Shown here: piece by piece, positions 13,785 to 57,410 of the stretch
How positions within the stretch are numbered: the stretch's first letter is position 1
How the letters are laid out: every line of letters starts with the position of its first letter
Assembly: GCF_964355755.1 (NCBI RefSeq)
Contig: NC_092672.1
Location: 9,856,501 to 9,920,500 of the forward strand
Direction of reading: 5' to 3'
From: Antedon mediterranea
Taxonomy: Eukaryota > Echinodermata > Crinoidea > Comatulida > Antedonidae
Length of the DNA stretch: 64,000 nucleotides
The notes under the pieces: generated by a model
Seen by the model: only the letters and a program-made list of their open reading frames with translations
The model's database searches: none
What the model was told of the DNA's origin: nothing
Position numbers and translations under genes: made by a program

Positions 13785-13966
13785 AAGCGTGGTTCCCACT
13801 AGCGACGCAACACAAGGACGTAACGCAACGCAAGTGAATTGACCAATCACAAGCGATGGCTTATTCGCTTGTGATTGCTAACTGTCTATAAATTCGCTTT
13901 TCATTGGTTAAAACGCTTGCGTTGCGTTTACGTCATTGCGTTACGTTCTAGTGGGAACCAAGCTTA
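13785..13966. mobile_element. GGTTCCCACTAG MITE, well preserved
   Basis: The ends are AGCGTGGTTCCCACTAG and CTAGTGGGAACCAAGCT, near-perfect inverted repeats. Inside, CGCAACGCAAGTGAATTGAC with CAATCACAAGCGA faces TTCGCTTTTCATTGGTTAAA with CGCTTGCGTTGCG, so most of the 180-bp element can fold on itself. There is no ORF. Inverted CCAAT motifs are present in both arms. It is one of the family from which the satellite at 49-54 kb appears to derive. Confidence 0.8.
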
Positions 13967-14756
13967 AGGGGACAATTTCTTGACGCAATGTATAGTGTCT
14001 TCTTAATTGAGTGTCCCTTGGCCGTAAATAGGTTAAAAAATACCATCTTTTTGAGAATATATACACTTAATGATAGTAGTATGGGTGTCCCAAATTAGAG
14101 GTTCTATTTTATAATATGGCCTAATTATTCCCAGTGTAAGGTACAAACGTATCTTTGCTTAACAGTCAAATACTCTATCCGGAAAGTAATGTTTACGTTT
14201 ATCATTTAAATTTTATTTGAGCATTAGTGATAAATTTGATTATGATGGTACTGGTAGGATAATAGTCTTTTCATATAATGAATTTGATGCATTTTAGTTA
14301 CTGATGCTCTGCAAGAAGCGTTCAGCAAGCCTGTAATAGGGTTATCGGGCGAAACGAGATGACTTAATTTAATAATTTCTCTAATTGAATGTTTACTCTA
14401 GGAGTGAATAAATATGTCATCTATGTACTAATGATAATTAGTAATGAAAACAACAGGGTGTAGATACTTTCACAGTCCGTCTGCTTTCATATTAAACGAC
14501 TGGAATTGCGACTACTGCTTGGCAACACACGGTGTATATACAGGATTCATTTCGTGATGCGCCATCGACTCGACGTTTTCGGACAGATGTGTTCTCTACG
14601 TGTTATTATACGTCTTACGTCATAGCAGGTCCCACAGCCTGACTACCTGGTTATGCTTGATAAAATATGTCAATGCTTTTGTTTTTAAAGAACTACAATG
14701 TAAGTTTTTTATTGTTTTAAACATGTTATCTAACTGGTGAATTTGTTTTTAATCTA

Positions 14757-23994: not shown

Positions 23995-24120
23995 CGTCCG
24001 GATACGGAATGTAATTTTATTTTTAGAGGCGTCGTCATGTTAGTTTGCGCACAATCCCTGTCGGCCACATATCTAAAGATTGGATGATCACCAATCACGT
24101 AGTAATTGGTCAATTTACGT

Positions 24121-24318
24121 AAGCTTGGTTCCCACTAGGACGCAACGTAATGGCGTAGACCCAACTCAAATGAGTTGACCAATGACAAGCGATAGTTCGA
24201 ATAATCCATCACTTGTGATTGGTCAAATTCCTTACGTTGCGTTACGTCGTTGTGTTGCGTCTCTAGTGGGAAGCACGCATTACGTTGCGCTTACGTCCTT
24301 GCGTTCCGTCCTAGATTA
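24121..24318. mobile_element. GGTTCCCACTAG MITE with a partial right-end duplication
   Basis: The element proper (24121-24278) starts AAGCTTGGTTCCCACTAGG and ends CTCTAGTGGGAAGCACGC, with facing GTTGACCAATGACAAGCGA and CACTTGTGATTGGTCAAA arms. Directly after the right end, TTACGTTGCGCTTACGTCC then TTGCGTTCCGTCCTAG repeats the right-terminal segment once more, incompletely. Confidence 0.8.
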
Positions 24319-24425
24319 TAAATATTAAAGCAAAAAAAAACAAAAACAAATTAATGAAGGTTAGGTTAGAACGTGATGTCTTTAACGTATACCATTTTGT
24401 TTCCCAAACGGGAAAGCATTTTAAT

Positions 24426-24588
24426 AGACGCAACGCAAGCGAGTTGACCAATTCCAAGCGGCAGTTTGAATAATCCATCGTCAAATCACTTACGTTGCGC
24501 TTACGTAAATTGTATTTCTTCTCTAGTGGGAACCAAGCATTACGTTGTGCTTACGTAATTGCGTTGCTTCTTTAGTGGGAACCAAGTA
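24426..24588. mobile_element. left-truncated GGTTCCCACTAG MITE with a 49-bp terminal tandem repeat
   Basis: The left terminal repeat is missing, and the internal arm GTTGACCAATTCCAAGCG and the right end CTCTAGTGGGAACCAAGC remain. The right end is followed by a second copy of its last 49 bp (CATTACGTTGTGCTTACG to TTTAGTGGGAACCAAG). GGGAACCAAG recurs 49 bp apart (24529 and 24578). This is the same terminal segment that underlies the satellite at 49.4-54.1 kb. Confidence 0.75.
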
Positions 24589-24599
24589 TTATGCTGTGT

Positions 24600-25770
24600 T
24601 AACCATGCGTTTGCATATCGGTTGACACCTTAAAACATTATCATCTCTCTAAAGTATTATAATTTCGCTATGTATTCACCTATGCTCAGATTCCAAGCTG
24701 TTTTACACTTGTCGTCCACACCTGAAAATACAATTTCTATTGTTGTCATTTGACGGGGATCACGCTTCTCAATTAAACCCCTGTGGAGCGATCACGCAAA
24801 ACAAGATCGTTTTCTTAAACGAAATATAATACAAATCGTTTCAACGGTATTCACAACCATAACGGCATATCTCATGACAGCATTTTAATAAACGTAAATT
24901 GAGTTATGTATATTGAAATGCCCATACGATGTACAGGATAGGTTGGCGTCGTATCGCTTATATGTGAATTTATAAGTTATTGTTATTTCATTCACGGTTA
25001 ATTAACAGTAGCCCATCGGTTAATTTGTTACGTTTCATTAGCGAACCCTTATAATCCACGTGCGTATGATATTACCACTTATTAACAAAGTGTTTGCAAG
25101 GATTCAGAGATGTTGATAATATATCGCATTCAAAAATGTAATAAATGCATTTCTTTCTGATGTGTGTTTTAAAAAATGATGCAGCTCACTTATAATGTAC
25201 CAATCATCTTAACATAACACAGACACTATGCATTGTAATTTGTTAAAATAATATTAATTTTGTAATATTATATATAGTTTAATATTTAATTTCTTTGTCA
25301 TTTTATTAATTTTTGATTTTGTTTTTGTCAATCAGCACATTGTTTATTTTTGTGTGTGTTTTTTTTTCTGTAATTTCTGTTTCTTTAAATTAATGAATAA
25401 AGGAAAACCAAATCAAAGTATTTTGTAATTATCGGTTAGCTCTCTTGACGTTATTTTTAATACATCGATGCTTGATTAATAAACTGATTATTAAGAATAC
25501 TATAAGTGTTTGTTGATGGCATTGGATTTTTACTAAAACTGTTGAATGCTAATTCCAGTAGAATCCATTAAATTTACAGGTTTAGCCTCAGTGATGGAAC
25601 TTAATTTAGTTTATTAATAATACTGCAAGATTTCATTAGTTAAATTACTTGGAACGGCATCTCATAAATATCGATAATTTGAAAAAAAATGGTCCGTTTT
25701 CTAATTACATAAATGGTAATAAGTCACGAAATTGCAGATTTGTAGAATTATTTATTTCTGCTGTAGTATT
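24600..25770. other. AT-rich DNA, no recognised feature
   Basis: No ORF with splice or codon support and no recognised transposon. Confidence 0.5.
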
Positions 25771-32657: not shown

Positions 32658-32785
32658 GTAAGTCTATTCATTAACAAACATACAGGTACGGTGTAAGCAA
32701 AGGCTACACCTTAAATCACATTCCTTTGTTTGAGCATTCTTCCAACTTAATTTCAATTAACACGTATCTTAAATCATGGATTCTT

Positions 32786-32945
32786 AAGCTTGGTTCCCAC
32801 TAGAACGTTACGCAAGGACGTAAACGCAACGCAAGCGTTTTAACCAATCAAATCAAGCGAATAAGACATCGCTTGTGATTGGTCAATTCACTTGCGTTGC
32901 GTTTACGTCCTTGCGTTGCGTCGCTAGTGGGAACCACGCTTTAGA
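32786..32945. mobile_element. GGTTCCCACTAG MITE, best-preserved copy
   Basis: The ends AGCTTGGTTCCCACTAG and CTAGTGGGAACCACGCT are inverted repeats flanked on both sides by TTA, a likely 3-bp target-site duplication. Inside, GTTTTAACCAATCAAATCAAG faces CGCTTGTGATTGGTCAATTC, and both halves carry CGCAACGCAAG or its complement. The total is about 155 bp with no ORF. A TTA duplication would suit PIF/Harbinger mobilisation, but that is inference from one copy. Confidence 0.85.
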
Positions 32946-36365: not shown

Positions 36366-36439
36366 GTAAGTTACTATTGTTTCTATTTTCTCAAATGATA
36401 TGATTATTCATATTTTGGGCTTGGTAAAGTTAATCGTTG

Positions 36440-37150
36440 TACTCGCATAGTCTCAACAAACAACGCGTTTTTCTCGCATATAGTCTCAACAAAAAACGCG
36501 TTTTACTTACATAGTTCAACGCGTTTTACTTGCATAGTCTTAACAAACAACGCGTTTTACTCGCATAGTCCAACGCGTTTTACTCGCATACTATAGTTTC
36601 CACAACGGTGTTTTACTCGGTCCCAACAACGCGTTTTTAACAATTTTTCATCAACGTGTATTTTAGACAAAACGTGCTTGTTTGCGTTTGAAAAACGTAG
36701 GACATATGATTATGTTCCTCGAGTATAGTACCTTGACCCGGTATATATAAAGTAGGCGTAGGAGAAAAGATTCTTTATGATTTTATGGATGGTGAGTATC
36801 ATTCATCTCACCGTCAGAATATGTTAAAACACATAAAATACTATTGATTATAAATTGAAGCGTCATGTTATAAAAGAATTAGCTTGATGTAGCTCAATAC
36901 ATTGTTTTTTAATCTCTCAAACAACCACGTCTCCTTATTAGTTACAGGTAGGCCAATTTATTAGATTGTGGTTCAATTCATTGCATTTATATTGATAGAT
37001 CTATTTGTTAATTACAATACAGTTACACTGCAGTACGTCAACACAAAAGTACAGTCAAAACTACGCGTTTTAACTTGCATATTCCAACGCGTTTTATTCG
37101 CATAGTCCAACGCGTTTTACTTGCATATTATAATCTCCAAAACGCGTTTG
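36440..37150 (+). repeat. CAACGCGTTTTACTCGCATAGTC minisatellite in two clusters
   Basis: A unit of about 22-45 bp built on AACGCGTTTTA and (C/T)GCATAGTC is repeated at 36440-36660 and again at 37055-37150. ACGCGT occurs ten times by hand count. It lies in the first intron of the signal-peptide gene. Confidence 0.8.

Positions 37151-45516: not shown

Positions 45517-45529
<13 letters not shown>

Positions 45530-45601
<72 letters not shown>
45530..45601. repeat. (TA)n microsatellite, left of the Penelope-like element
   Basis: About 36 uninterrupted TA units directly abut the first recognisable retroelement sequence. The open frame through it is an artefact of the repeat. Confidence 0.95.
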
Positions 45602-45603
<2 letters not shown>

Positions 45604-47028
45604 CAAGATAAGCAAAACTATACTCGATCGTATTAACAGCAAAATTACATCAAAACTGCGCACCAATCAATGGAAAAATACCTCATCGGTCATCGCAATG
45701 ACCTGCTGAATAAAGCACTAGACTTCGCTAATAGATACGATGATATTACCAACGACGAAAGAGACATCATCGTACATACTAAAAAATCAGTACTATCACA
45801 CAAACAGCAACCATGGCAAAAGAAAGGCCTCACAGCATTCGATGTGACTATGGGTAGTTATGATGGCGCAGAAACATGTGAACTTGTTGGAAACTTCCTG
45901 TTACACCAATTACAACAGAAACTAGGAATCAACATAGGACTTTACAGAGATGACGGCCTTGCAGTCACAGACACCACACCTAAAAGCACAGACAATATTA
46001 AAAAAGACATATGCCAAATATTCAAAGACAACGGCCTACGCATTACCATAGAAGCAAACAAACAAGTCATCAACTTCTTAGACGTCACACTCAACCTAGC
46101 GAAGAACACATACCAGCCCTACACCAAACCAAACGCCACGTTAAAGTATATCCATCAACAAAGTAACCACCCACCGACCATCCTAAAGAATATACCCGCC
46201 GGAATAAACAAACGACTCTCGTCCTTGTCATCCGACAAGAATTCATTCAACCAAGCCGCCCCTGTATACCAAAAAACTCTCAACGACAGTGGATACAAGT
46301 ACACACTAAAATACGAGCCGGTAACCCAGACAAGACGAAAAAACAGACAACGAAACGACATTCTGTGGTACAACCCACCGTTCAGCAAAAACGTCGGCAC
46401 AAACATTGGACAGAAATTCCTATCCCTAGTAGACAAACATTTTCCAAAAGATAACAAACTAAGAAATATCTTCAACCGAAACACTATCAAGATTAGCTAC
46501 AGTTGTATGAACAATATGAAATAGATAATAGACAGTCACAACAAGAGAATACTCAACCAGCCCGAAACAACATCCGTGGAAAACACGCAAGAAAACAAAA
46601 CATGCAACTGCCGACAGAAAAACACATGCCCGCTAAACGGAAATTGCTTACAATCATCTGTAATATACCAAGCCACAGTTACACGCAAAGACAAATCCAC
46701 CTCGGAAACTTATATCGGACTCACTGAAAATGATTTTAAAACACGATACAGAAATCACACCTCATCATTCCGTAATACACGTTCTAGAAACTCAACCGAA
46801 CTCAGTAAACATATTTGGACACTCAAGGACAACAACACAGACTATTCAATCTCATGGCGCATCTTGGCATCTACTAAAGCATATAGTAGCGCAAACAAAA
46901 AATGCAACCTCTGCCTCAAAGAGAAATTATTTATCATCCGCCACCCTGAATTATCGACATTAAACAAACGTAACGAACTTGTGTCCGCCTGCCGGCACAG
47001 AAAGAAAGCATTGTTACATAACAGCTGA
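45602..47028 (+). pseudogene. Penelope-like retroelement: RT remnant plus GIY-YIG endonuclease
   Basis: Penelope-like elements encode a telomerase-related reverse transcriptase followed by a GIY-YIG endonuclease. Frame 2 (45602-45703) starts inside the RT with [13 protein letters not shown]. The main frame 1 (45670-47028) resumes at [13 protein letters not shown], so the stretch that normally holds motif A (the FDI...FYPS Asp) has been deleted with a frameshift. Motif C survives as [10 protein letters not shown] (about residues 95-104), followed by FLDVTL. A single in-frame TAG at 46522-46524 separates RT from the linker. Beyond it come a Cys cluster (C-x-C-x5-C-x5-C at about 46606-46650) and the nuclease: VIYQATV, YIGLT, a conserved Arg in TRYRNH, Glu in CLKEKLF and Asn in LNKRNEL. 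The element is 5'-truncated, RT-dead, with a nearly intact nuclease. Confidence 0.9.
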
Positions 47029-48350: not shown

Positions 48351-48357
48351 AAAGTTA

Positions 48358-48770
48358 GATTAGGTCGGTATACCTTAATCCAAATGACACTTATTATGGG
48401 CATTACCACTAAAATACTAGTTCAACAAATGGATAAAGTGTTAGTAACCAAAGTTAGGTGAATGTTATAGGCTGCAATTCTAATTTTCACTTCTGTAACT
48501 AGGAAATGACTATCTTTTAAGTAAACCATAAAGCTATAGATTAGGTAGATATAATTTAATTCACATGAGCTTATCATGGGAATTACCACTAACTAAGTTC
48601 AACAAATGGATAGAGTTTAGTAATCACATTTAGGTGAATGTTATAGGCTACAATTCTTTTCTTCTTCTTCACTTCTTTAATGAAATGCCCATCTTTTAAG
48701 TACATCCTAAATCTAGATTAGATCGATGTAACTTAATTCAAATAGAACAAATAAATAGAGTTTAGTATGC
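48358..48770. repeat. tandem repeat, about 180-bp unit, 2.3 copies
   Basis: ATTAG(G/A)T anchors occur at 48359, 48540 and 48717. Shared blocks include CAACAAATGGATA, TAGGTGAATGTTATAGGCT and ATCTTTTAAGTA. Copies differ by substitutions and short indels. Confidence 0.85.
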
Positions 48771-49439: not shown

Positions 49440-50800
49440 TAGTTTATGAAATCTGCACCACTCGAGTTTCTATTTCACAAGAGATTGGACACAAATGACT
49501 TGCTTTTCGCGCACTTCATAGCGTTCATGCATCCTAGTATGAACCAAGCTTTAGAAATTGTGCAGCTTTACAAAAATCGATTGGACATAAATGACTTGCT
49601 TTGCGCGTACATAGCTTTAGAAATTCTGTAGCTTGACAAAAAAAAGAGATTGAACACAATGACTTGCTTTGCGCGTTCTTCATTGTGTTCATGCACCCTA
49701 GTATGAACCAAGCTTTAGTAATTATGTACCTTGACAAATCACAAATAATTGGTCAAATGACTTGCTTGGCGCGTACTTTATTGCGTTTATGCATCCTAGT
49801 ATGAATCAAGCTTTAGTAATTGTCTTGTTTTATAAATAACAAGCGATTGGTCAAATGATTTACTTTGCGCTTCTTTCATTGCGTTTTTGTATCCTAGTAT
49901 GAACCAAGCTTTAGTAATTGTCTTGTTTTATAAACAACAAGCGATTGGTCAAATGATTTACTTTGCGCTTATTTAATTGCGTTTATGTATCCTGGTATGA
50001 ACCAAGCTTTAGTAATTGTCTTGTTTTATAAATAACAAGCGATTGGTCAAATGATTTACTTTGCGCTTATTTAATTGCGTTTATGTATCCTGGTATGAAC
50101 CAAGCTTTAGTAATTGTCTTGTTTTATAAATAACAAGCGATTGGTCAAATGATTTACTTTGCGCTTATTTCATTGCGTTTATGTATCCTAGTATGAACCA
50201 AGCTTTAGTAATTGTCTTGTTTTATAAATAACAAGCGATTGGTCAAATGATTTACTTTGCGCTTCTTTCATTGCGTTTTTGTATCCTAGTATGAACCAAG
50301 CTTTAGTAATTGTCTTGTTTTATAAACAACAAGCGATTGGTCAAATGATTTACTTTGCGCTTATTTAATTGCGTTTATGTATCCTGGTATGAACCAAGCT
50401 TTAGTAATTGTCTTGTTTTATAAATAACAAGCGATTGGTCAAATGATTTACTTTGCGCTTATTTAATTGCGTTTATGTATCCTGGTATGAACCAAGCTTT
50501 AGTAATTGTCTTGTTTTATAAATAACAAGCGATTGGTCAAATGATTTACTTTGCGCTTATTTCATTGCGTTTATGTATCCTAGTATGAACCAAGCTTTAG
50601 TAATTGTCTTGTTTTATAAATAACAAGCGATTGGTCAAATGATTTACTTAGCGCTTATTTAATTGCGTTTATGTATCCTGGTATGAACCAAGCTTTAGTA
50701 ATTGTCTTGTTTTATAAATAACAAGCGATTGGTCAAATGATTTACTTTGCGCTTATTTAATTGCGTTTATGTATCCTTGTATGAACCAAGCTTTAGTAAT
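49440..50800. repeat. satellite array, irregular edge then 98-bp units
   Basis: The left edge (49440-49890) has diverged units. From 49901 GAACCAAGCTTTAGTAATTG recurs every 98 bp exactly (49901, 49999, 50097, 50195, 50293, 50391, 50489, 50587, 50685, 50783). Variant sites (CCTAGTAT or CCTGGTAT; CTTCTTTCATT, TTATTTAATT or TTATTTCATT) repeat with a four-unit, 392-bp period over the first two blocks. Each unit contains GCGATTGGTCAAATGATTTA and GCGTTTATGTATCC. Confidence 0.95.
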
Positions 50801-53220
50801 TGTGTAGCTTGACAAATCAAAAAAACATAAGCATAAACAACTGGAAACGAATGTCTTGTTTGCGTTTACGCATCCTAGTATCAACCAAGCTTTAGTAATT
50901 TTCTTGTTTTATAAATAACAAGCGATTGGTCAAATGATTTACTTTGCGCTTATTTCATTGCGTTTATGTATCCTTGTATGAACCAAGCTTTAGTAATTGT
51001 GTAGCTTGACAAATCAAAAAAACATAAGCATAAACAACTGGAAACGAATGTCTTGTTTGCGTTTACGCATCCTAGTATCAACCAAGCTTTAGTAATTTTC
51101 TTGTTTTATAAATAACAAGCGATTGGTCAAATGATTTACTTTGCGCTTATTTCATTGCGTTTATGTATCCTTGTATGAACCAAGCTTTAGTAATTGTGTA
51201 GCTTGACAAATCAAAAAAACATAAGCATAAACAACTGGAAACGAATGTCTTGTTTGCGTTTACGCATCCTAGTATGAACCAAGCTTTAGTAATTGTCTTG
51301 TTTTATAAATAACAAGCGATTGGTCAAATGATTTACTTTGCGCTTATTTAATTGCGTTTACGCATCCTAGTATGAACCAAGCTTTAGTAATTGTGTAGCT
51401 TGACAAATCAAAAAAACATAAGCATAAACAACTGGAAACGAATGTCTTGTTTGCGTTTACGCATCCTAGTATCAACCAAGCTTTAGTAATTTTCTTGTTT
51501 TATAAATAACAAGCGATTGGTCAAATGATTTACTTTGCGCTTATTTCATTGCGTTTATGTATCCTTGTATGAACCAAGCTTTAGTAATTGTGTAGCTTGA
51601 CAAATCAAAAAAACATAAGCATAAACAACTGGAAACGAATGTCTTGTTTGCGTTTACGCATCCTAGTATCAACCAAGCTTTAGTAATTTTCTTGTTTTAT
51701 AAATAACAAGCGATTGGTCAAATGATTTACTTTGCGCTTATTTCATTGCGTTTATGTATCCTTGTATGAACCAAGCTTTAGTAATTGTGTAGCTTGACAA
51801 ATCAAAAAAACATAAGCATAAACAACTGGAAACGAATGTCTTGTTTGCGTTTACGCATCCTAGTATGAACCAAGCTTTAGTAATTGTCTTGTTTTATAAA
51901 TAACAAGCGATTGGTCAAATGATTTACTTTGCGCTTATTTAATTGCGTTTACGCATCCTAGTATGAACCAAGCTTTAGTAATTGTGTAGCTTGACAAATC
52001 AAAAAAACATAAGCATAAACAACTGGAAACGAATGTCTTGTTTGCGTTTACGCATCCTAGTATCAACCAAGCTTTAGTAATTTTCTTGTTTTATAAATAA
52101 CAAGCGATTGGTCAAATGATTTACTTTGCGCTTATTTCATTGCGTTTATGTATCCTTGTATGAACCAAGCTTTAGTAATTGTGTAGCTTGACAAATCAAA
52201 AAAACATAAGCATAAACAACTGGAAACGAATGTCTTGTTTGCGTTTACGCATCCTAGTATCAACCAAGCTTTAGTAATTTTCTTGTTTTATAAATAACAA
52301 GCGATTGGTCAAATGATTTACTTTGCGCTTATTTCATTGCGTTTATGTATCCTTGTATGAACCAAGCTTTAGTAATTGTGTAGCTTGACAAATCAAAAAA
52401 ACATAAGCATAAACAACTGGAAACGAATGTCTTGTTTGCGTTTACGCATCCTAGTATGAACCAAGCTTTAGTAATTGTCTTGTTTTATAAATAACAAGCG
52501 ATTGGTCAAATGATTTACTTTGCGCTTATTTAATTGCGTTTACGCATCCTAGTATGAACCAAGCTTTAGTAATTGTGTAGCTTGACAAATCAAAAAAACA
52601 TAAGCATAAACAACTGGAAACGAATGTCTTGTTTGCGTTTACGCATCCTAGTATCAACCAAGCTTTAGTAATTTTCTTGTTTTATAAATAACAAGCGATT
52701 GGTCAAATGATTTACTTTGCGCTTATTTCATTGCGTTTATGTATCCTTGTATGAACCAAGCTTTAGTAATTGTGTAGCTTGACAAATCAAAAAAACATAA
52801 GCATAAACAACTGGAAACGAATGTCTTGTTTGCGTTTACGCATCCTAGTATCAACCAAGCTTTAGTAATTTTCTTGTTTTATAAATAACAAGCGATTGGT
52901 CAAATGATTTACTTTGCGCTTATTTCATTGCGTTTATGTATCCTTGTATGAACCAAGCTTTAGTAATTGTGTAGCTTGACAAATCAAAAAAACATAAGCA
53001 TAAACAACTGGAAACGAATGTCTTGTTTGCGTTTACGCATCCTAGTATCAACCAAGCTTTAGTAATTTTCTTGTTTTATAAATAACAAGCGATTGGTCAA
53101 ATGATTTACTTTGCGCTTATTTGATTGCGTTTATGTATCCTTGTATGAGCCAAGCTTTAGTAATTGTGTAGCTTGACAAATCAAAAAAACATAAGCATAA
53201 ACAACTGGAAACGAATGTCT
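50801..53220. repeat. satellite array, 197-bp higher-order units
   Basis: TGTGTAGCTTGACAAATC recurs at exactly 197-bp steps thirteen times (50801 to 53165). Each unit is a 98-bp type followed by a 99-bp type carrying CATAAGCATAAACAACTGG. Units whose junction reads TATCAACC (C type) or TATGAACC (G type) follow the order C C G, C C G, C C G, C C C, G, so a 591-bp super-period is overlaid on the 197-bp one. Confidence 0.95.
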
Positions 53221-54135
53221 TGTTTGCGTTTACGCATCCTAGTATGAACCAAGCTTTAGTAATTGTCTTGTTTGCGTTTACGCATCCTAGTATGAACCAA
53301 GCTTTAGTAATTGTCTTGTTTGCGTTTACGCATCCTAGTATGAACCAAGCTTTAGTAATTGTCTTGTTTGCGTTTACGCATCCTAGTATGAACCAAGCTT
53401 TAGTAATTGTCTTGTTTGCGTTTACGCATCCTAGTATGAACCAAGCTTTAGTAATTGTCTTGTTTGCGTTTACGCATCCTAGTATCAACCAAGCTTTAGT
53501 AATTGTCTTGTTTGCGTTTACGCATCCTAGTATGAACCAAGCTTTAGTAATTGTCTTGTTTGCGTTTACGCATCCTAGTATCAACCAAGCTTTAGTAATT
53601 GTCTTGTTTGCGTTTACGCATCCTAGTATGAACCAAGCTTTAGTAATTGTCTTGTTTGCGTTTACGCATCCTAGTATGAACCAAGCTTTAGTAATTGTCT
53701 TGTTTGCGTTTACGCATCCTAGTATCAACCAAGCTTTAGTAATTGTCTTGTTTGCGTTTACGCATCCTAGTATGAACCAAGCTTTAGTAATTGTCTTGTT
53801 TGCGTTTACGCATCCTAGTATCAACCAAGCTTTAGTAATTGTCTTGTTTGCGTTTACGCATCCTAGTATCAACCAAGCTTTAGTAATTGTCTTGTTTGCG
53901 TTTACGCATCCTAGTATGAACCAAGCTTTAGTAATTGTCTTGTTTGCGTTTACGCATCCTAGTATGAACCAAGCTTTAGTAATTGTCTTGTTTGCGTTTA
54001 CGCATCCTAGTATGAACCAAGCTTTAGTAATTGTCTTGTTTGCGTTTACGCATCCTAGTATGAACCAAGCTTTAGTAATTGTCTTGTTTGCGTTTACGCA
54101 TCCTAGTATGAACCAAGCTTTAGTAATTTTCTTTT
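53221..54135. repeat. satellite array, 48-bp units
   Basis: Nineteen units of exactly 48 bp contain GCGTTTACGCATCCTAGTAT, (G/C)AACCAAGC and TTTAGTAATTGTCTTGTTT. Because 48 is divisible by 3, several frames stay open on both strands for up to 307 codons; these are artefacts. G/C variants at the GAACC/CAACC site are interspersed. The array stops at about 54135 in a run of T and unique sequence. Confidence 0.97.
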
Positions 54136-55620
54136 TTGTATAAATTAAAGCCCAAAAGGAACAATAAACAATAATATCACAATAAAAACATACAATTCAA
54201 GATAAAATACATTTTCAAAATAATAGTTTAAAGCCAAGATACTTAATCAATCATAGTGTTCAATAGTTAAGTGTTAGAGTCTCTTTCCATGGTATTAATT
54301 AGGTATTATTGAAGCCATTGTAACTACATTCATAAACTATACAATACTAAAAATAATATTTAAATACATAGTTGATAAACAGAAGTTGCTCTACTAATAA
54401 TTACGATGATTACAAAAACTAACTAAGTTATAAACGTGAACGATAACGACGGAGCCCCACGAGAACGATGTCTTTGATCATGTTGTATCTAAATTTATCT
54501 TGAACATCAATCCCTACGGCTGGTCGTTATATTATGCTCAATTTCATACTTTGAAGAAATAAATAAAATACTACTATAAAAAAAACTTATAAAAAGTAAA
54601 AAAATGAATCATTTAAAGGATGCCATTTTCAAAATTGTTACTACATACATTAAGTAGTAGCAAATCATATAGTATACTCAAGCAAACACTGCTTTTAACA
54701 TCACGTCATTTTTTTAAATGCGGTATAGATACATTTGTTACCTTTTAAACAAGTGATCATCACAACAGTGAACTATCGTTGTATGTAATAATGTTTTGTT
54801 TCGTTTATTATTTATATCGTATATCGACCAGAACACCATAATCACAATACATACAGTACAACATATGAAAATGCTTGGCAGTGTCGCTGTACTCAAATGA
54901 GCAAGCTACACATTATGTAGTATTAATATAACTGTTTATATGTTCCACGGGCATGATGGGTCATTAAAGCTTCTGGGGGAAACAAACCTAAGGCCACTTG
55001 TCGCTTATTGTCCAGTAAAGTGACAGGACCGCAAGTGATTTGACCAATCACATGCGATGCGAGCATCTTAACTGTCACTTGCTATTTGCTAGATTACTTG
55101 CGTTGTGCGCACTTGTCTTGTTTTGTCCAAGCAGGTTCTCGGTACAAGTAATTGGCACATTCTGTGATACAGTGTCACATATGTGTCCCAGGTCACACAG
55201 TAAGCCTAAACAACCATAACCTTAACACAATACAGCCACTGGAATCTGAAAATGTATGATGCTGTACATATTGCTAATGTGGAGATACAATACAGAAGAT
55301 TGGATGGAATAAGCGCCAAACATTTCAGAAAAACATACATATGATCGTGTGTTCAATCAGAATAATTTTCTTTGAAGTAATTATCAGTAAAATCTGTGTA
55401 GATGTAAAATGGATTGAAGTTCCGTATTGTATGGTTATCCTCTTAGTTCAAGAAGTGTATCGATCATCCTTTTTCATTTATTTTGTCACTTTGTTTAAAA
55501 TCTTTATAATACAAACGGACAGATTGAAAGCCACCAGAAATTAGTATTTGTCATGAGACGGAATTGGAAATCACAATAGCGAAACACTGTCATATAACCA
55601 TCCCGGTTTTTACAGGTTAT
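54136..55620. other. AT-rich DNA after the satellite
   Basis: A weak relative of the GGTTCCCACTAG MITE may lie at 54990-55135 (AAGTGATTTGACCAATCACA, ATTACTTGCGTTGTGCGC), too diverged to delimit. No gene is recognised. Confidence 0.4.
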
Positions 55621-56774: not shown

Positions 56775-57410
56775 CAGTTTCATCACCGATGTTTAGCAAG
56801 CCGAAGACTTTTTTAGACCATTTTGAAAGTTTCATCAGCATGCGTCCAGCGAGCCAACGCGGAGCCAGTGTACTTTGTGACCATTTGACCGAGGTCTAGC
56901 AAGTCGAAGAGTCCATATATATGGAAGATTTTACAAATTATTACTGCGGGTTAGCAAACCCTAGTGTCAACGTTTATGAAAGTTGCACCAGCAATGAAAT
57001 TCAGCAAGCCAATGAATACTTTGTAACCATTTTGTCCGTGTTATCGTTTATGTTTAGTAAGCCAATGAATCCATGTATTGCGACCATTTTGAAAGTTCTA
57101 TCAAAGAAGTTCAGCAAGCCAAAATATACTTTGTAACAATGTTGTCAGATTCACCGTTCATGTTTAGTAAGCCGATGCATCTATTTATTTGGACCATTTT
57201 GAAAGTTTTATCAAAGAAGTTCAGCAAGCCAATGAGCCAAATTATACATTGTAACCATGTTGTCAATGTCATCGTTCATGTTTAGTTAGCCATTGCATCC
57301 ATGTATTGGTACCTTTTTAAAGGTTCCATCAAATAAGTTTAACAAGCCAAAGAGTCATGTACTAGAACAATTTAGTAATTGTATCAAAGAGGTTACCAAA
57401 GTCAAGAAGA
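56775..57410. repeat. degenerate tandem repeat, 110-bp period of two 55-bp halves
   Basis: TTCAGCAAGCC recurs at 57000, 57110 and 57220 (period 110). The half-unit TTTAGTAAGCC falls between them. Shared blocks are GACCATTTTGAAAGTT, CTTTGTAAC(C/A)AT and CGTTCATGTTTAG. The edges fade over about 200 bp each side. Open frames inside it are repeat shadows. Confidence 0.85.

Follow-up and report, generated by a model that had tools for sequence, protein, structure and literature searches.

Homogenisation usually removes the earliest copies of a satellite. The Xstir repeats of Xenopus and their MITE are reportedly the subject of a 2004 study by Hikosaka and Kawahara. The route from MITE to satellite is already established, and the relevant sections of reviews list Xstir, miDNA4, rye D1100, bivalve HindIII and BIV160 among such origins (PMC9659126, PMC6947457, PMC12628747). 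As described in these sections, Xstir occurs in MITE, composite and tandem array forms with the repeat drawn from the MITE, and the reviews disagree on whether its unit is internal or comes from the TIR (PMC12628747, PMC9659126, PMC6947457). According to the passages on Tetris of Drosophila virilis, this non-autonomous inverted-repeat element supplies tandem repeats, TIR-220, that grow into arrays, the repeats lying inside the terminal repeats of the foldback element and on many contigs (PMC4079207). For CMITE of Acropora, the pertinent sections report head-to-tail arrays of full-sized MITEs with TTAA target duplications, for which its authors suggest replication slippage (PMC2872659). In the review passages on miDNA4 of Xenopus tropicalis, short direct repeats are proposed to drive the length change of a captured repeat carried inside the MITE (PMC12628747, PMC9659126).

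The locus described here lies in a window of 64,000 nucleotides (contig 3, 9,856,501-9,920,500, of a 354-Mb, 18-contig assembly). It holds an array that is real, MITE-derived and found at one locus, and that is an unusually well resolved case of the known route. As with Xstir, there are MITE copies, composites (loci L059 and L060 on other contigs, and 24404-24600 in the window) and an array; going by the published descriptions, the present case is set apart by the finding of one array, by a unit that includes the target-site TTA and by later period changes that can still be read. In contrast to TIR-220, the unit spans the element terminus and one array was found; in contrast to CMITE, a partial MITE is repeated and the flanks are TTA/TAA; in contrast to miDNA4, the MITE arm itself is the unit. 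Searches of an open-access library listed no paper recognised as reporting the present MITE or array. Side by side in one genome stand the source family, duplications of a single step at separate loci, and an array that keeps diverged units at its edges along with two higher-order stages; the change of period from 98 to 197 to 48 bp can be read with exact breakpoints. With all stages readable in one genome, models of slippage, unequal exchange and composite-MITE formation become directly testable.

The tandem array was placed at ~49,477-54,145 (~4.6 kb) by blastn with a doubled unit, and TRF returned repeats within it at 49658-53167 (98 bp), 49693-53273 (197 bp) and 53216-54138 (48 bp). The order of the units, numbered with the prefix t, was read by cutting the array at AGCTTTA, and gave the following parts:

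49477..49815, + strand, left array edge: diverged, partly truncated units, including the t05 unit with a left-arm-like spacer
49816..50795, + strand, 98-bp zone: ten units
50796..53258, + strand, 197-bp dimer zone: 12 dimers (99-bp B unit + 98-bp A unit) and a final B unit
53216..53225, + strand, 10-bp word TGTCTTGTTT: inside the last B unit, ahead of the 48-bp zone
53259..54122, + strand, 48-bp zone: 18 units, of which 13 are identical and 5 carry a one-base change (tatGaacc/tatCaacc)
54123..54145, + strand, right array edge: decayed A-type spacer (to ~54153 by eye), with flank beyond

The array is thus a series of several successive repeats, namely, diverged edge units, 98-bp units, 197-bp dimers and 48-bp units. 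From 49,620 onwards, ...AAGCT is followed by TTA throughout, at a spacing of 98/99 bp and later of 48 bp. A four-unit higher-order repeat of 392 bp, t06-t07-t08-t09, is present twice in the 98-bp zone in identical copies, and the first three consecutive 591-bp three-dimer blocks do not differ from one another, whereas the fourth departs from them at 7 positions. Exact copies across hundreds of bases would point to recent amplification or strong homogenisation. A classical satellite has long arrays at many loci, typically heterochromatic; at ~4.6 kb and as the sole array returned genome-wide, the present one more nearly resembles a young minisatellite or satellite-like array. We found nothing to suggest that the array has a function and take it to be a by-product of repeat instability. 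Open frames of 323 and 359 aa run through the 48-bp zone; these, together with the Pfam matches of the 323-aa frame (DUF1731, E 4e-16, and three others), were regarded as artefacts that arise because the period is a multiple of three.

The origin of the 48-bp period can be read from the dimers. Where a B unit is followed by the t15 form of A, TGTCTTGTTT occurs once in each of the neighbouring units, as a 10-bp direct repeat with starts exactly 48 bp apart, and the stretch delimited by its two copies is the 48-bp unit. The new period is explained by slippage or unequal exchange between these copies, and the t13 form of A has one mismatch in the word, so the event must have used the t15 form. 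The single-base variant tatCaacc of the 48-bp zone is also present in B units (t12), which suggests exchange between the zones or a second origin.

Four copies of the MITE family in the window bear on the origin of the unit:

32784..32945, + strand, MITE copy named in the first-pass annotation: TTA on both sides; a distant relative of the array
13785..13968, - strand, longer form of the MITE: an additional stem-loop at its centre
24120..24314, + strand, MITE copy: part of its right arm is repeated after it
24404..24600, + strand, MITE copy: terminal 49-50 bp tandemly duplicated (TRF 49 bp x 2.2)

The family has the features of a MITE. It is short and non-coding with terminal inverted repeats; in the copy at 32784-32945 the arms are complementary at 91% over the outer 22 nt and 87% over the inner 46 nt, and an open-frame search returned no frame of at least 120 aa. 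It has a target-site duplication, with identical bases on both sides in 7 of 16 copies (TTA in six, TAA in one; in the remaining nine the sides differ, or an end was missed or wrongly recognised) and TTA or TAA in 14 of 15 recognised right flanks. It is also abundant and dispersed: the genome search gave 840 first-look candidates, the best 40 of which were scored, on contigs 1-10, and MITE sequence was found in 4 of 19 readable random 10-kb regions, as 7 elements after adjacent hits had been merged by eye (20 regions from contigs 1, 2 and 4-7, one of which reads N). Membership of the PIF/Harbinger superfamily is judged by a 3-bp TWA target duplication and a related transposase, and the TTA/TAA flanks agree with the former. 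The end sequence of the MITE is AGCTTGGTTCCCACTAG, and a text search of the open-access literature with the terminus GGTTCCCACTAG found no paper. A decayed MITE remnant lies ~0.9 kb to the right of the array (55012-55139) and holds TTGTCTTGTTTT, 12 bases of the A-unit spacer, possibly by chance.

The proposal that the satellite was built from the right half of a MITE was borne out by the comparison with shuffled sequence that the first-pass annotation had itself suggested. Local alignment of the 98-bp unit with the MITE at 32784-32945 scored 45, a value reached by none of 1000 dinucleotide shuffles of that MITE (mean 17.0, sd 2.3, max 28). The match spans 71 columns, including 4 gapped positions (73% in blastn); the likeness stands, and its description as aligning position for position was slightly generous. 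Against 11 MITE copies on both strands, each of the five unit types tested outscored all of its 200 shuffles, with 71 for A (shuffle maximum 28), 69 for t05 (31), 52 for t04 (28), 47 for B (33) and 47 for the 48-bp unit (27). The retention of the flanking TTA was likewise confirmed, both by the recurrence of AAGCT-TTA in the array and by the same TTA/TAA on both sides of the 7 MITE copies above. The right arm scored better for unit A in 8 of the 11 copies, the left in two, with one tie; since the MITE is palindromic, which half counts as the right one depends in part on orientation.

A whole-genome search with the 98-bp unit gave 9 first-look candidates, all of which were scored, and these correspond to the array and 8 dispersed places with 77-83% identity to the unit; all 8 were fetched and all carry MITE matches. 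A search for other arrays of the same origin had also been proposed, and only this one was returned by a tool that skips very common words and may miss diverged arrays; the MITE copies with terminal duplications that were to be sought alongside were found both in the window and at other loci. At the 8 places the matches to the unit stop at its position 65-73, and the MITE terminus with TTA lies at position 69. This agreement is the strongest evidence for the origin of the unit, and the derivation of the repeat unit from one arm of the MITE together with the target-site TTA is supported.

The remaining 29 bp of the unit (positions 70-98) fall outside the earlier claim. In the older units this spacer reads as the inner left arm of the MITE joined straight to the right arm, the loop seemingly lost. 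An in-register comparison, with the left-arm stretch read off the copies by eye and 20,000 base shuffles each, gave matches at 15/22 positions for t01 (p 5e-5), 14/22 for A (p 5e-5), 14/21 for t05 (p 1.5e-4), 12/21 for t04 (p 0.006) and 9/19 for t03 (p 0.05). In a first in-register test neither t05 (7/22, p 0.41) nor B (9/22, p 0.14) was significant; t05 was then shifted by one base for the result given above, and the figure for B, which has an insertion here, is that of the first test. In free local alignment, the number of shuffles out of 400 that were as good was 399 for t01, 350 for t03, 275 for t04, 44 for B, 13 for A and 1 for t05, and the best match of the A spacer was not the left arm. 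For a consensus spacer made by eye, 2 of 1000 shuffles did as well with each of two scorings, and the consensus had 13 of 21 printed matches at MITE positions 50-75, just before the loop; in the repeat test under the two scorings, 9 and 5 of 1000 shuffles were as good for t05, and 30 and 168 for A. With tests this mixed, an origin of the spacer from the inner left arm is likely, not proven, and is less well supported than the match of the arm; the spacer's first ~12 bp are poorly explained. A reading of the spacer as host flank captured at the right edge was abandoned: that edge looks like a decayed A spacer, and the older units look like the left arm.

The following course of events is proposed, with the order of steps based on divergence and position rather than on outgroups. 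A palindromic MITE with a 3-bp TTA/TAA target duplication would have inserted at the array locus and lost its central loop. A tandem duplication would then have joined its right terminus and the target-site TTA to the inner left arm, producing the 98-bp unit, which slippage or unequal exchange presumably amplified into the head-to-tail array with its exact higher-order copies. A B variant would have arisen next, with B+A dimers amplified as a 197-bp unit and then as a 591-bp three-dimer unit. Last, the DNA between the TGTCTTGTTT direct repeats, which lie 48 bp apart across the B-A junction, would have been amplified to the 18 units whose boundaries are seen in the array. The recurrence of AAGCT-TTA through the array places the duplication breakpoint outside the element, which would favour the duplication of a copy already inserted over serial transposition. 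No intact founder MITE was seen at the array edges. We assign this whole course, from MITE insertion through the 98-bp unit and the dimers to the 48-bp array, a probability of roughly 0.8.

A variant of the first step, in which the right terminus of one MITE insertion was fused to the inner left arm of a neighbouring or tandem second one and this hybrid was amplified, in place of a duplication within a single element, is possible at clearly less than even odds; the later steps are the same, so that the two confidences overlap. Tandem or abutting MITE copies are frequent (for example, L033 and L037): among the best 40 of 840 candidates, a non-random set, an abutting partial piece was counted at 7 places and a second full copy 77 bp off at one more, a tally made by our reading of the table with the letters fetched for two of the eight. 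However, the repeated TTA junction fits both models, and a second element was unseen at the array edges. It is highly unlikely that the MITE family and the array both go back to an older sequence, or that the MITE obtained its arms from the array. At a similarity of only ~72-83% the direction is deduced, but the unit is arrayed at the one locus found whereas MITE copies are present on contigs 1-10 (840 candidates, 40 scored), and the units hold the target-site TTA, which belongs to an insertion. Slightly less probable again is an array forming the internal tandem block of a larger Helitron-like mobile element. Such carriers are known in oyster, in the part of the source concerned with them (PMC7492417), and as Drosophila DINE elements, in a review table (PMC9659126); this reading was rejected, since the whole-genome search found no arrays of the unit elsewhere, the right flank (54150-54550) matches itself alone in the genome and the two flanks bear no convincing likeness to each other (best E 0.02). 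Chance similarity or a compositional artefact, for which nothing but AT-richness speaks, was rejected with near certainty on the shuffle test, and outside the array the genome search gave MITE copies only.

Within the proposed course from inserted MITE to 48-bp array, the copy at 32.8 kb was rejected as the direct ancestor, and the claim that ancestor, intermediates and product lie within 40 kb was not upheld. This copy ranked ninth of 22 MITE sequences in likeness to the units (summed A, t05 and t04 scores); the ranking is biased, the top eight having been found by resemblance to the unit, and it still shows that closer relatives of the units sit on other contigs. The nearest relatives of the 32.8-kb copy itself (94-95%, among the best 40 of 840 candidates) are on contigs 6, 1, 5 and 8 and on contig 3 at a distance of 19 Mb. 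With 15 of the 19 random regions empty, a 40-kb stretch is expected to hold no MITE ~39% of the time; a MITE within 40 kb is expected more often than not, and closeness therefore carries little weight. The duplications in the 24-kb MITE copies have a unit of ~50 bp, and we read them as separate events, not steps to the 98-bp unit.

The first step is clearer at two loci on contigs 9 and 6 (L059 and L060) than in the window copies. At both, the right terminus GCTTTA of the MITE runs into GCAATCACAAGCG, followed by the loop and a second right arm, with a period of 96 bp and the junction sequence GCTTTAGCAATCACAAGCG. Since GTTAGCAATCACAAGCG is found inside a longer MITE form (L047), the terminal TTA and an internal TTA of the MITE could have paired here. 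The repeats of these dimers have 4-8 mismatches of 69, a figure that would fit either a dimer that moved as a unit or one that arose twice. A dimer of this kind as the direct precursor of the 98-bp unit was unsupported (rank 11th and 15th of 22 in likeness to the units, and a different junction), and we take the two as parallel cases. Other terminal duplications were found at 24,404-24,600 (~50 bp), at 8,414-8,640 of L047 (~65 bp) and in L037, where a 17-bp terminal segment is repeated. The MITE family may be a recurrent nursery of tandem repeats, in which the terminus and the TTA target duplication pair repeatedly with similar short words in the palindromic arms and yield duplications of ~17, 50, 65 and 96-98 bp at separate loci, one of which escaped into a multi-stage array where short direct repeats fixed one new period or more; we advance this tentatively, at somewhat under even odds.

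Several further repeats were noted in the window. A separate direct duplication with an offset of ~180 bp and 78% identity over 217 columns lies just left of the array (48356-48743), and a 110-118-bp tandem repeat is present in about three copies at 56992-57354. Neighbouring tandem repeats at 36435-36590 and 37063-37129 have related units (ACGCGTTTTACT...) that are not MITE-like by eye. Adjacent open frames of 295 and 167 aa at 45637-47028 have a retroelement-like look, with a resemblance to Penelope-like elements; they gave no family in a Pfam scan. A perfect (TA)41 run occupies 45520-45601.
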